DNA from: Thermaerobacter subterraneus DSM 13965
GTDB taxonomy: Bacteria; Bacillota; Sulfobacillia; Thermaerobacterales; Thermaerobacteraceae
Length of the DNA stretch: 64,000 bases
Direction of reading: 5' to 3'
Assembly (NCBI RefSeq): GCF_000183545.2
Contig: NZ_JH976535.1
Location: 2,109,837-2,173,836, forward strand
Shown here: positions 17,890-35,455 of the stretch, piece by piece
Position numbering within the stretch: the stretch's first letter is position 1
How the letters are laid out: each line of letters starts with the position of its first letter
Notes under the pieces: generated by a model
Seen by the model: only the letters and a program-made list of their open reading frames with translations
What the model was told of the DNA's origin: nothing
The model's database searches: none
Translations under genes and position numbers: made by a program

Positions 17890-20800
17890 CTACCCGTCGC
17901 GAGTGTTGCCGCCCGGTTCCGGTTCTTCCCCCAGCGCTGCGGCCTCCGCCGGGCCCCCGTCCCCCAGGGGCGGGATCACGTCGACGCGGGCCTGGGGCGC
18001 CGCGGGCCAGCCCGGGGGGGCTGCAGCGACCACCCCGGAGCCCTCCAGGGCGGCGGCCGCCGCGTCGGCCAGGTCGCCGCCGCCGGGCAAGCCGGCGGCA
18101 CCGAACCCGCCCGGCGGCACGACCAGCCGGTAAGGCATGTAGAGGCGCAGGCGCGAGCCCTCGCCCACAGGCCACAGCCCCAGGGCGAAGAGTTCCGCCT
18201 CGATCTGCACGGGGTTGGCGTCCAACCCCCGCGACCGGCACCAGTCCCCCAGAGCCTCCAGGTCGACCACCCGGTCCGGTCCCGACCAGGAGGCCACCAC
18301 GTCGGCCAGGATGGCCCAGGCCGTCGCCGGCGTCTCCACCCACGCCGCCGGCAGGTGAACGGGGCGGCGGGGCCAGAGGCGGGTCACCGCCTGGTCCCAC
18401 AAGGCGGCCCGGGCCAGGGCGCCCCGGCCGCGACCCCCGCCGGCAGCCGCCGGTTCGTCCGCCGCGGCGGCCGCTGCGGCGCCGCTGGGCTCTCCCGCCC
18501 CGCCCGCCGGTGCCACCCGCTCCGGGACCAGCAGGGAAATCCAGGGGTCGAACCAGGCGGTAACCAGCCATTGCCGGCGCAGCCGCTCCAGCAGCTCGGG
18601 GCCCGGCTCCTCCCCCCGGGCGCCGGCGGCCCGGCGGATGCGGTCCGCCAGCCAGCCGGCGGCCTGGTCCAGGGCCGGCACGGCGGACTCCCGGTGCCCT
18701 GCGGGCCCGGTTCCGCCAGCGCCCCCGTCCCCGCCCGCGGCGGCGGCGACGTCAAGGGCCGGCCCTGCATCCCCCTGGGCCAGCTGGCGGAAGGCTCCGT
18801 GGAGCACGACGGCGTGGGCGAAGGCCGGGTCGGCCAGAGCCAGGGCGGCCAGCTGGTCGATCTCGCCGCCCGCCCGGACCCACCCGTCGTTCAGGGACGT
18901 GGCCGTCCAGGTGTCCTCCACGCCCGTCAGCCAGCCCATGGTGGCCAGGTAGGCGATGACCTGCCGGGCCTGGGAACGCTGCCGCCAGCGGCCCAGGTAC
19001 GAGGTGAGTTGGGACGTGTCGTACACGTGACCGGCCAGAAGCTCGGCCAGCAGCCCGCGTACCGCCGCCAGGTTGGTGGGGCGGGGGCCATAGGCAGGCA
19101 CCCGCACCGTCCCCGCGGACCGGGGGTCCGTCGCCAGCCACGCGGCCAGGCCGAACCGGTCCCGGCCGTAGCGCAGTACGGCGGTGTCCTCGTTGAGGGC
19201 CCGGGCCACCGTCCGCCGCGGGTAGCTGCGCACCCGCTGGACGGCCGCGACCACCTGGTCCAGGCTGGCCGGCTCCCCGGCTTCGGCCAGGGCATCGCGG
19301 CACAGCTGCGCCAGGTTCCGCTCCGGCTGCCGTTCCCAGTGGCTCAGGCCGTAAATCCCCCGGTCCACGCGGCGGAAGGGCTCCCCCGACGACAGGATGG
19401 TCAACACGTGGGTCGGCGGCATCTTCCGCCCTTCGGGCAACAGCTGGTTGACCAGCCGGGTGAGCTCGGCGTAGTGCAGGGGCCGCCCGTGCCGCTGCAG
19501 CGCCTGGTAGACGTAGTCCCGGGCCCGCATCCTTCGTCCCGCGCGCCAGTTGGCAAGGCCGTAGGTCCCGCCGGGGAAGCGGGCGAAGGAAGCCTGGGTG
19601 GTCACCACCGCCCGGGCCAGCGCCTCCGCAGGGGCGGGCAGGTCCCCCATGCCTTCCTCCAGGTGGGCGGCCAGTTCGGCCAGGGCCAGCGGGCGGCCGG
19701 CCGCCGCCAGGAACTCCTGCAGGCGCCGGGCCGCCTCCGGCAGGTGCTGGGCGATCTCCGCCGTCGACCAGGTCGACCCCGCCACCCGCCGCAGCCCGGG
19801 CGTCACGTGCACCAGCAGGCCCACCAGCCGGACCGCCTGGTCGGTCGACTCGGGCACGCCCACGGTGCCGTCCTGGCGCAGGGCCTCGGCCAGCTCGGCA
19901 GGCCCCGCGGCGCCGCAGCGGGTCGCCGCAGCCCGGACCGCGTCCACCAGCGGCTGGAAGCGCTCCAGTCGTGCCCGGGCCCTGGCGCGGCGCAGCGCCC
20001 GCCCCTGCACCACGCTGACCCACTGGCGGGTGGTCTGCCAGCGCGCGGCGATGGCCGACAGGTCGTGGGCTTCCTCCCCCAGCAGGCCGTACCGCAGGGC
20101 CAGCACTTCCCGCTCCCGGTCGGGCAGCGGCTCGATCAGCTCCTGCAGCCAGTCCTCCAGCCGGCGGGGGAACGCTCCCCTGCGGCTGCACTCCTGCCGG
20201 TACTGGTGCAGGCTTTGCAGAACGGCCGCGACGCCGCTCTCCCCGAGCCCGCGCAACCGGCGCAGCCCTTCCTGCGTAAAGCCGGCCAAGGCCCCGACGG
20301 TGTGCAGCCCCGCCCGCTGCAGGGCGGTGACGACCCGGCGCGGCAGGAGCAGGGCACCGATGGGAGCCGGATCGTCCATCAGGTCGGGGGCCAGGGGGTC
20401 GCCGGTGGCACCGCCGGGTGGCGGCAAGGGCCGGCCCGATTGCAGGGCGTCCAGGCGATGGCAGATCTCCGCCAGCGAGCGGGGCCCGAGCCCTCGCAGC
20501 CGCTGCAGCCCCGGTTCCCCCAGCTCCAGCAGCTGGCCCACGGTCTGGATCCCGGCCCGGCGCAGGGCCCGGTAGGCCCGCTGGCCCAGCCCGAGATCGT
20601 CCACGGGCCGCCGGCGAACGGCCTCGGGGAACCGCTGGGGGTCGTACCGGGTGGCCCGCGCCAGCAGCTGCCGCTGGTAGGCTCCGTCGGCCATGACCCG
20701 CGCCAGCTCGGTGACCAGGGCCAGCAGGCCCCGGGTCCCCATGCCGCGGGCGGCCAGAAGCCGCGGGTCATGCCGCCAGGCGAGATCGCCCACGGTCTCG

Positions 20801-21102
20801 TAACCCCGCTGCTGGAGCGCCAGGCGGACCCGAGGCGGGATGTCCAGCAAGTCGAGGGGGATCCCCGCCAGGCCGGTCGCCGCGGCAGCGGCGCCGGGTT
20901 CGCCTTCGGCCCCGCTCCGGTCCCCGGCCCGGTGGTCACCGGGCGAACCGGCCTGCGCCGGCTCCGGCTCCGGAGCAGGGGCCGGCCCTCCGGCGGGCGC
21001 CGCCTCCTGGGGCTGGTCCAGGCGGGGCCCTGCGCCCCCGGTGTCCGGCCGTTCCAGGTGCGGTGCGCCAGGCGCCAGGGGCCCATCAGGCGCCAGTTCC
21101 AT
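17890..21102 (-). CDS. Large DNA-binding protein with alpha-CTD-like, sigma region 4-like and HARE-HTH-like modules
   Basis: 1070 residues; not recognised as a named family. ATG at 21102 follows GGAGGGGAAAGA. Residues 1-77 are Pro/Ala-rich. About 78-300 hold three helix-hairpin-helix units like the C-terminal domain of RNA polymerase alpha; the clearest has RPVDDLGLGQRAYRALRRAG, then TVGQLLEL and LGPRSLAEI. About 318-385 match sigma-70 region 4 (EPLPDREREVLALRYGL, then TTRQWVSVVQGRALRRARAR). About 440-655 hold winged-helix units resembling HARE-HTH/RpoE-delta (YVYQALQRHGRPLHYAEL, FRRVDRGIYGLSHW). The remainder is partly disordered with helical blocks. No sigma region 2, ATPase or nuclease motif is visible. 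A role contacting promoter DNA or RNA polymerase is inference. Two inverted repeats lie upstream. Confidence 0.85.
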   Translation of the reverse strand: MELAPDGPLAPGAPHLERPDTGGAGPRLDQPQEAAPAGGPAPAPEPEPAQAGSPGDHRAGDRSGAEGEPGAAAAATGLAGIPLDLLDIPPRVRLALQQRGYETVGDLAWRHDPRLLAARGMGTRGLLALVTELARVMADGAYQRQLLARATRYDPQRFPEAVRRRPVDDLGLGQRAYRALRRAGIQTVGQLLELGEPGLQRLRGLGPRSLAEICHRLDALQSGRPLPPPGGATGDPLAPDLMDDPAPIGALLLPRRVVTALQRAGLHTVGALAGFTQEGLRRLRGLGESGVAAVLQSLHQYRQECSRRGAFPRRLEDWLQELIEPLPDREREVLALRYGLLGEEAHDLSAIAARWQTTRQWVSVVQGRALRRARARARLERFQPLVDAVRAAATRCGAAGPAELAEALRQDGTVGVPESTDQAVRLVGLLVHVTPGLRRVAGSTWSTAEIAQHLPEAARRLQEFLAAAGRPLALAELAAHLEEGMGDLPAPAEALARAVVTTQASFARFPGGTYGLANWRAGRRMRARDYVYQALQRHGRPLHYAELTRLVNQLLPEGRKMPPTHVLTILSSGEPFRRVDRGIYGLSHWERQPERNLAQLCRDALAEAGEPASLDQVVAAVQRVRSYPRRTVARALNEDTAVLRYGRDRFGLAAWLATDPRSAGTVRVPAYGPRPTNLAAVRGLLAELLAGHVYDTSQLTSYLGRWRQRSQARQVIAYLATMGWLTGVEDTWTATSLNDGWVRAGGEIDQLAALALADPAFAHAVVLHGAFRQLAQGDAGPALDVAAAAGGDGGAGGTGPAGHRESAVPALDQAAGWLADRIRRAAGARGEEPGPELLERLRRQWLVTAWFDPWISLLVPERVAPAGGAGEPSGAAAAAAADEPAAAGGGRGRGALARAALWDQAVTRLWPRRPVHLPAAWVETPATAWAILADVVASWSGPDRVVDLEALGDWCRSRGLDANPVQIEAELFALGLWPVGEGSRLRLYMPYRLVVPPGGFGAAGLPGGGDLADAAAAALEGSGVVAAAPPGWPAAPQARVDVIPPLGDGGPAEAAALGEEPEPGGNTRDG

Positions 21103-21237
21103 TCTTTCCCCTCCGTACGGGCGCCGCCCAGCGGCCGCGGGAGGCCGGCCCGGCCGCCCACGGGCCATGGAGCCGCAGGGCCGGGGGTGCCGCCGGTGCG
21201 GTGACCAGTGGGGGTCGCCACCCACCGACCGCGCATT

Positions 21238-21326
21238 TTCGACAAAACCTGTCGAACGATGGCGAAAGAGGGGGCGACCACTTATATCAATCGTGTTCGA
21301 TTGTAAACTTTTCTTGACGCTTTCAA
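21238..21326 (-). promoter_or_regulatory. Promoter/operator region of the large transcription-like gene
   Basis: An AT-rich island in a GC-rich genome. It has two perfect inverted repeats: TTCGACA-AAACC-TGTCGAA (21238-21256) and CAATCG-TGTT-CGATTG (21288-21303). On the minus strand TTTACA (21307-21302) and TATAAG (21286-21281) could be -35 and -10 with a short 15-nt spacer; TTGAAA at 21326-21321 is another -35 candidate. The second inverted repeat falls between the hexamers, as expected for a repressor site. The remaining sequence of the 436-bp gap (21103-21538) holds the acsA terminator. Confidence 0.5.
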
Positions 21327-21450
21327 CCAGAGCGGATCGCAAAAAGCCTGCCCCGCCCGACCAGAGCGGTTGGCCGGGACCATGCGAAGCAACAGAGGGC
21401 ATGATCCCGGCCGGGCGTGGCGGGCGGTGGGCTGGTCATCCGCCCTCACC

Positions 21451-21485
21451 GGAAAGGGACCGGGATCCCGCAGGACCCCGGTCCC
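21451..21485 (-). terminator. Terminator after acsA
   Basis: Read on the minus strand, GGGACCGGG (21485-21477 region) pairs with CCCGGTCCC (21464-21456), extended internally, and is followed by TTTCC. It lies about 55 bp after the acsA stop. Confidence 0.65.
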
Positions 21486-21538
21486 CGGCCGGGAGCTGGC
21501 CCGGTCCGCCCGCCAGCAGCAGGCTGGTGAGCGGGTGG

Positions 21539-23512
21539 TCAGCGGGCAGGCTGGGAGGCGTACATCTGGCGCAGCTGCTCCGGAACGTCGGGATCACGCA
21601 GGGTGGTGGTATCGCCCAGCTGGCGCCCTTCCACGATATCCCGCAAGAGGCGCCGCATGATCTTGCCGCTGCGGGTCTTGGGCAGGTCGGGCACGAACAG
21701 CACCCGGTCGGGCCGGGCGATGGGGCTGATCACCTTGGCCACGTGCTCCTTGAGTTCCGCCTCCAGCTCGGGACCGCCCTGCCGGCCGGCCTCCAGGATC
21801 ACGAAGCCCACGGGCACCTGGCCCTTGACCGGGTGAGGTGCCGCGATCACCGCCGCTTCCGCCACGGCCGGGTGGGACACCAGCGCGCTCTCGATCTCCA
21901 TGGTGCTCAGCCGGTGACCCGCCACGTTCATCACGTCGTCCACCCGGCCGAGCACCCAGAAGTAGCCGTCTTCGTCGATCTTGGCGCCGTCGCCGGGGTA
22001 GTACACATCCCGGCCCCACTTGGACCAGTAGGTGTTGACGTAGCGCTCCTCGTCGCCCCAGATGCCCCGGAGCATGGAAGGCCAGGGGCGCAGGATGGCC
22101 AGGTAGCCGCCGCCTTGGCCGGGCGGCACGGGGTTGCCCTGGTCGTCCAGCACCGCCGCCTTGATCCCGGGGAAGGGCCGGGTGGCGCTGCCGGGCTTGG
22201 TGACCGTCACCCCGGGGAGCGGGGTGATCATGATGGCCCCCGTCTCCGTCTGCCACCAGGTGTCCACGATGGGGCAGCGGCCGCCGCCGATGTGCTCGTG
22301 GTACCACATCCAGGCCTCCGGGTTGATGGGCTCGCCCACGCTGCCCAGGAGGCGCAGGCTCGAGAGGTCGTGCCGCCGCGGGTACTCGGGGCCGTCGGCG
22401 GCGAAGGCCCGGATGGCCGTGGGAGCCGTATAGAAGATGGTGATGCCGTATTTCTCGATGATCACCCACGGCCGGTCCTTGTCCGGCCAGTCGGGCGCCC
22501 CCTCGTACATAACCACCGTGGCGCCGTTGGCCAGCGGGCCGTAGACGATGTACGAATGGCCGGTGATCCAGCCGATGTCGGCCATGCACCAGTACACGTC
22601 GTCTTCCTGCAGGTCGAAGACCCACTTGGTGGTGGCGTACACGCCCGTCAGGTACCCGCCCGTGGTGTGGACGATGCCCTTGGGCCGCCCCGTGGTGCCC
22701 GAGGTGTACATCATGAAGAGCATATCCTCGGCGTCCATCGCTTCGGGCGGGCACAGCCGCTCCGCCTGCTCCATCAGCTCGTGCCACCAGCGGTCCCGGC
22801 CCGGCGTGAAGGGTACCTCATGGCCGGTGCGCCGCACCACCACCACAGCCTCCACATCCTGCTTGCCCGCCAGCAGCTTGAGCGCCTCATCGGCCTGGGC
22901 CTTGAGCGGAACCACCTTCCCCCGGCGGTAGAACCCGTCAGAGGTGACGAGGAACCGGGAGCCGGCATCTTCCATGCGCGAGGCCAGGGCCTGGGGGCTG
23001 AAGCCGGCGAAGACCACCGAGTGGGGCGCGCCGATGCGGGCACAGGCCAGCATGGCGATGGGCAGCTCGGGGATCATGGGCAGGTAGATGGTCACCCGGT
23101 CGCCCTTCTTCACGCCCAGGCCCTTGAGGACGCTGGCGAACTTGTTGACTTCCCGGTAGAGGTCATAGTAGGTCAGGGTGCGGGTATCCCCCGGCTCACC
23201 TTCCCAGATGATGGCGGCCTTGTTCCGCCGCGGCCCGCGGATGTGCCGGTCGACGCAGTTCACGCTGGCGTTCAGCTTGCCGCCGAGGAACCACCGGGCA
23301 TGGGGCGGGTTCCACTCCAGCACCCGGTCCCACTTCTGAAACCACTCCAGCTCTTCCGCCCACCGGGCCCAGAAGCCCTCGGGATCCCTTTCCGCTTCCT
23401 CGTAGACCGACTCGTCCCGCACGTGGGCGCGGGCCCGGAAGGACTCGGGGGGTGCGAAACGCCGTTCTTCCCGGAGCAGGGCATCGATGGGCCTTCCTGC
23501 CGCGTCTGCCAT
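21539..23512 (-). CDS. acsA: Acetyl-CoA synthetase (AMP-forming)
   Basis: 657 residues, the normal length; makes acetyl-CoA from acetate, ATP and CoA via acetyl-AMP. ATG at 23512 follows GAGGGAGGGGACACC. Motifs in order: [35 protein letters not shown] (AMP-binding loop), [28 protein letters not shown], and [10 protein letters not shown], whose second Lys is the residue acetylated and inhibited in AcuA/Pat-regulated homologues. The region upstream has a perfect 10-bp palindrome TCTAATTAGA (23563-23572) in an AT-rich patch that may be part of the promoter. An MHS transporter gene precedes it on the same strand but has its own terminator. Confidence 0.96.
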
Positions 23513-35236: not shown

Positions 35237-35455
35237 GGGGCCTCCCTCCCATCCCCGCCCGGGCGATGCCCGGCGGCCGCCACGATGATCCCGCCCGGAT
35301 TATACCGCCTGCCGGGGCCGGCGGCGAAAGCCGGATGCCAGGCCCCATGCCGGCAGCTGCCGCCGCCGGGCGCCTGCACTGAACGGACGCGAGCACCCGC
35401 TTCCTGCCTGGCCGGAGACGCCTTCCTGCCGGATGCCGATATTTTTCCTATTCTG

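Follow-up and report, generated by a model that had tools for sequence, protein, structure and literature searches.

Which proteins read the two inverted repeats that precede a large gene assembled from parts of the transcription apparatus, and is the product of that gene among them? The repeats occupy a small part of the window, by which is meant the whole 64,000-nucleotide stretch analysed here, and sit between a minus-strand acetyl-CoA-synthetase-like gene (ending at 21539) and the gene that they appear to control. An initial sequence-only reading had described two perfect inverted repeats within an AT-rich island, and both parts of that description hold: each repeat is present with perfect arms, and the 89-bp stretch that carries them is 44% GC, a level of AT-richness reached in just 0.2% of all 89-bp windows across the 64 kb. 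The lowest-GC 89-bp window of the 64 kb begins at 35439 and is 36% GC. The gene and the repeats are laid out as follows.

17890..21102, minus strand: the controlled gene, encoding a protein of 1070 aa that has three RNA_pol_A_CTD stretches and one Sigma70_r4 (a HARE-HTH match in the window protein is below cut-off)
21102-21100, minus strand: start ATG of the controlled gene, with a GGAGGGG ribosome site ahead of it
21238-21256: IR1, TTCGACA-N5-TGTCGAA, perfect arms with a 5-nt spacer
21250..21256, minus strand: 5' arm of IR1 in gene sense, TTCGACA, equal to the 0A box TGTCGAA on the plus strand
21238..21244, minus strand: 3' arm of IR1 in gene sense, TGTCGAA, which is the 0A core exactly and stands within TTTTGTCGAAAA
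21288..21303, minus strand: IR2, CAATCG-N4-CGATTG (arms 21288-21293 and 21298-21303, perfect, with a 4-nt spacer), a palindrome over the candidate -10 and the predicted start

The ATG at 21102-21100 is preceded by GGAGGGGAAAG. This later ATG is preferred over a longer open frame from 21402, in which the repeats would be intragenic, because its ribosome site is conserved and because the length from IR1 to the ATG (135 in G000) differs by non-multiples of three between genomes and hence does not hold frame. The order of synthetase, controlled gene and a phosphosugar-isomerase-like gene is kept in all five genomes that carry the gene, the neighbours being named by sequence impression.

Long orthologous matches to the 1070-aa protein were found in five of 61 genomes, the window's own included, and matches in the other 56 were short and fell within the alpha-CTD or the sigma-region-4 portion. 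Across 154 genomes of the class, a half-protein search returned the five known orthologues and three weak partial matches (E 2e-4 to 7e-4) that were not accepted as orthologues; further orthologues numbered zero from 46 stretches and one from 116 stretches, the latter taken as the own contig of G004. The alpha-CTD/sigma-region-4 protein is restricted to the family and is lineage-specific. Its AlphaFold model is poor (mean pLDDT 50.7, pTM 0.26), and the 25 NCBIfam matches listed, to RpoA and sigma factors, all fall below their cut-offs. A role for the gene as a stand-in for a missing AbrB was ruled out, as an AbrB-like protein is encoded in all five genomes (an open frame of 83 aa in G000-G003 and 99 aa in G004, chosen as the best among the 6 to 11 PF04014 matches that each genome gave).

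Considered as bare repeats, IR1 and IR2 are weakly unusual at best. In the 437-bp upstream region there are five perfect repeats with 7-bp arms, IR1 included, against a shuffle mean of 1.5 (at least five in 4% of shuffles), and 12 repeats with 6-bp arms against a mean of 5.1 (4.3%); the 140-bp AT-rich module has a single one with 7-bp arms (reached in 11% of shuffles) and three with 6-bp arms against a mean of 0.65 (5.3%). These figures, from 300 dinucleotide shuffles per region with spacers of 3-20, are not counted as evidence. The repeats stand above chance because they are conserved and rare in each genome and, in the case of IR1, also because TGNCGAA boxes cluster there.

Conservation was assessed in a small related set, in which G000-G003 represent one genus, with G000 and G002 near-identical, and G004 represents a sister genus. 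The repeats recur upstream of orthologues. The arms of IR1 are invariant in 5/5 on direct reading (the automatic alignment misplaces those of G004), with spacers of 5, 6, 5, 16 and 5 bp, the 16 belonging to G003; IR1 is found wherever the controlled gene is found, which tells nothing on which protein reads it. The arms of IR2 are invariant in the four genus genomes, and IR2 is absent from G004, so that this repeat accompanies the gene in four of five cases. Both repeats had been credited with TCGA-type half-sites; their arms in fact differ (TGTCGAA in IR1, CAATCG in IR2), and for this reason the idea that the two are duplicates of a single operator was rejected.

Each repeat is also close to unique. 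TTCGACA-N(0-25)-TGTCGAA is found at the controlled gene in all five genomes, a single time in each, with one extra occurrence in G002 that falls within a long open frame; its reversed control has one match in G000 and no match in the remaining four genomes. CAATCG-N(0-8)-CGATTG has one copy in each genus genome, only upstream of the controlled gene, and none in G004 (reversed control: two places in G002, zero in the other genomes); a search allowing up to three mismatches agrees. The block that holds the repeats is sharply bounded. Among three lineages (G000, G001 and G003, with G002 omitted as near-identical to G000), identical columns number 0/25 in the upstream flank, 29/43 up to and including the -10 and 28/43 from the -10 to IR1; the IR1 arms are fully identical, and the ungapped count beyond IR1 is 12/60. 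Including G002 gives 29 and 27 of 43 for the two middle stretches, and over all five genomes the stretch up to the -10 gives 24/43, the next stretch not being column-comparable with G004, which is 9 bp shorter there.

The promoter assignment had to be revised. The sequence-only reading had set possible -35 and -10 elements around IR2, and this TTTACA/TATAAG promoter was dropped: TATAAG (21281-21286) is not conserved, reading TTTAAG in the closest relative, and a sigma-70 scan of 21050-21600 returned 0 promoters. Two conserved elements mark the candidate promoter that replaces it.

21300..21305, minus strand: candidate -10 TACAAT, identical in 5/5 orthologues, with the start inferred near 21293
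21314..21319, minus strand: CGTCAA upstream of the -10, within TGGnnGAAAnCGTCAA, picked out by sequence conservation

TACAAT would serve as the -10, and by eye the same hexamer stands at the spoIIE-like promoter in 4/4 loci. The candidate -35 is weak (TTGAAA/TGGAAA/ATGAAA at 15 bp). IR1 lies 3' of TACAAT, at a distance of 43 bp in all four genus genomes and 34 bp in G004.

Spo0A is the master switch of spore formation, and its binding site offers a ready comparison for IR1. The published Spo0A core is TGTCGAA with contacts at G2, C4 and G5 (in a passage of PMC3485338). IR1 supplies two exact copies of this core, with G2, C4 and G5 in place, in each of the five orthologues. All five genomes encode a Spo0A with the DNA-reading helix: the Spo0A_C profile match is over cut-off in each, and the helix SRVERAIRHAIEVAW is the same in the five translations, the copy in the window's genome being identical to that of 1FC3/1LQ1. 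The genus of G000-G003 is probably Thermaerobacter, of which Thermaerobacter composti is a spore former (in a passage of PMC11008173). IR1 looks like a Spo0A operator site, and is best read as such rather than as a site for the controlled gene's product. A further box stands beside it.

21260..21266, plus strand: TGGCGAA, a third box of 0A type that keeps direct 10-bp register with the one at 21250-21256, present in G000, G002 and G003 and degenerate in G001

In gene sense, G000, G002 and G003 read TTCGCCA-N3-TTCGACA-spacer-TGTCGAA, and G004 reads TTCGACA-N5-TGTCGAA-N3-TGACGAA with its third box on the opposite side of IR1; G001 has the facing pair only. Four of the five genomes thus have an additional TGNCGAA at exactly 10 bp, which lies to one side of IR1 in the genus and to the other in the sister genus. 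The number of upstream TGNCGAA boxes was matched by fractions of 0.0015, 0.0165, 0.001, 0.003 and 0.001 of 2000 shuffles in the five genomes, and among the 35 TGNCGAA in the 64-kb window only these three stand less than 40 bp apart. Across the five genomes TGNCGAA-N3-TGNCGAA occurs at 11 places against one for its reversed control, four of them at the controlled gene, four near other genes and three resembling the ends of one insertion element, so that the pattern alone is no proof. The related pattern TTTGTCGAAA also occurs at 11 places, against two for its reversed control, with 2/11 at the controlled gene. The element-like matches (L083, L084 and L089, around 1501) carry TGACGAAACTTGGCGAA in a repeated stretch that is probably an element end and misleads searches for 0A boxes; in L084 and L089 it adjoins an IS110-like transposase frame, named by eye.

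The sequence-only reading had suggested a search for further genomic copies of the repeats. Boxes of the 0A type recur at other genes of these genomes; IR2 has no other copy in the genus genomes. Upstream of spo0A, tandem boxes with one or two mismatches stand in 10-bp register in all five genomes, as found with a degenerate pattern picked after inspection. The spoIIGA-like genes have nTCGACA 21 bp ahead of TATAAT in 5/5 (L065-L069), and the spoIIE-like genes have TGCGACA 22 bp ahead of TACAAT in 3/4 (L078-L081), the fourth having TGTGACA there by eye; the spoIIE of G004 is left out of this count, its contig ending. The exact core is not among the boxes at the spo0A-, spoIIGA- and spoIIE-like genes. 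At the abrB-like gene, four of five genomes show TGTCGAG and G004 shows no such box, and the four spoIIAA-like loci show no conserved box, only unconserved one-mismatch matches. The names spoIIGA-, spoIIE- and spoIIAA-like rest on matches below curated cut-offs (over in 0/5 genomes), Bacillus subtilis being over in the same searches.

Several other occurrences deserve mention in their own right. The spacings of 21 and 22 bp from 0A-like box to -10 at the spoIIGA- and spoIIE-like genes may amount to a compact rule for activated promoters in the lineage. At about 1501-1527 of L093 in G003, three boxes in 10-bp register (TGTCGAA, TGGCGAA, then TGTCGGC) lie just upstream of a gene for a secreted, possibly S-layer protein, named by eye. 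TGCCGAAACTTGTCGAA, common to the two close genomes (G000 L086 and G002 L090, 1501-1517), stands upstream of a gene that by eye is HD-GYP-like. TTTGTCGAAAA follows directly on a -10-like element around 1501 in G002 L048 and G001 L052 and resembles a Spo0A repression site; the gene behind it would encode a lipoprotein akin to a peptide-binding protein, again by eye.

The reading that we favour, to which a probability of about 0.6 is given, is that IR1 and its neighbouring box form a Spo0A operator acting as a roadblock on a gene transcribed from the TACAAT promoter, with IR2 as a second operator. The operator would be made up of three 0A boxes, with one pair in direct 10-bp register and one pair lying face to face. 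Transcription would proceed from the promoter at 21300-21305, beginning near 21293, which would put IR1 at about +38 to +56 and the three boxes together at about +28 to +56. Spo0A~P bound there would most likely be a roadblock, such that the alpha-CTD/sigma-region-4 protein is made in growth and shut down once sporulation begins. Boxes downstream of a promoter have been proposed as a roadblock at the Pv promoter of spo0A in Bacillus subtilis and are said there to be reported for abrB (in a passage of PMC12090719). Spo0A binding, the start site and repression of the controlled gene are what we infer from this arrangement, and the roadblock fails if the true start is elsewhere. Because IR2 has a core unlike that of the 0A boxes, its reader should be a different protein, and IR2, lying over the -10 and start, may be the operator of a distinct DNA-binding protein that has few other targets or none.

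It is also conceivable, if improbable, that the boxes act positively, the gene being turned on in early sporulation through another start or through relief of an IR2-bound repressor. By analogy with Bacillus, the 0A-like boxes ahead of the -10 at the spoIIGA- and spoIIE-like genes suggest that Spo0A activates some promoters here. At the controlled gene, however, no box is seen by eye 21-22 bp ahead of TACAAT. Repression by Spo0A~P is preferred because IR1 lies downstream of the conserved -10, at a distance fixed in the genus, and because of the abrB and spo0A Pv roadblocks.

Autoregulation, the proposal of the sequence-only reading, would have the alpha-CTD/sigma-region-4 protein bind IR1, IR2 or both at its own promoter, and is similarly unlikely for the locus as a whole. 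Its premise of conserved control sites stands, the product carries DNA-binding-type modules, and the constancy of IR1 beside the gene and the solitary copy of IR2 in the genus are as such a circuit would have them. Binding of the product at IR1, on the other hand, finds no support, given that the arms are Spo0A cores and that 0A-type boxes recur at other genes, and G004 keeps both gene and IR1 with no IR2. Autoregulation appears most plausible at IR2, more than at IR1, and one IR2 copy per genus genome fits a dedicated or an autoregulating repressor. Least probable is an RNA hairpin formed by IR1 in the 5' leader: the arms could pair in the transcript, with a stem that by sequence reaches at least 8 bp in G001, G003 and G004 and folding z of -2.4 (G001) and -2.6 (G003; equally good folds in 4 and 3 of 200 shuffles, respectively), but z for the window's own copy is -0.3 and that for G004, the fourth sequence folded, is -1.5, the seven arm pairs are invariant without compensatory change, and three Rfam matches, all below gathering scores, were not used as evidence.

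If the Spo0A roadblock is accepted, a tentative and more speculative extension is that the family-restricted protein is a growth-phase regulator removed by Spo0A~P at sporulation alongside AbrB, with IR2 the operator of this protein or of a dedicated partner. Under the favoured reading itself, an uncharacterised, family-restricted protein made of transcription-apparatus parts would be linked to the switch for sporulation in a lineage of GC-rich spore formers, and concrete predicted sites can be offered. The AT-containing 0A core is conspicuous in a genome of ~70% GC, and part of the Spo0A regulon may consequently be readable from sequence in these organisms.

Autoregulatory or single-target palindromic operators are a general known kind, and IR2 resembles them as a perfect palindrome over a -10 with one copy per genus genome; it differs in being missing from the sister genus. 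The 0A boxes of abrB run head to tail in 10-bp register, an order from which the facing pair of IR1 departs. With abrB and spo0A Pv of Bacillus subtilis the locus shares the TGTCGAA core, several boxes and, with TACAAT as the putative -10, a site downstream of the promoter (in passages of PMC3485338 and PMC12090719), whereas here a facing pair is separated by 5-6 bp (16 in G003), the start is a predicted one, and the target is an alpha-CTD/sigma-region-4 protein rather than AbrB or Spo0A. The spoIIGA- and spoIIE-like promoters of the same genomes likewise have 0A-like boxes, the spoIIE-like one sharing even the -10 TACAAT; at these promoters a one-mismatch box stands 21-22 bp before the -10, whereas at the controlled gene IR1 stands 34-43 bp after it.
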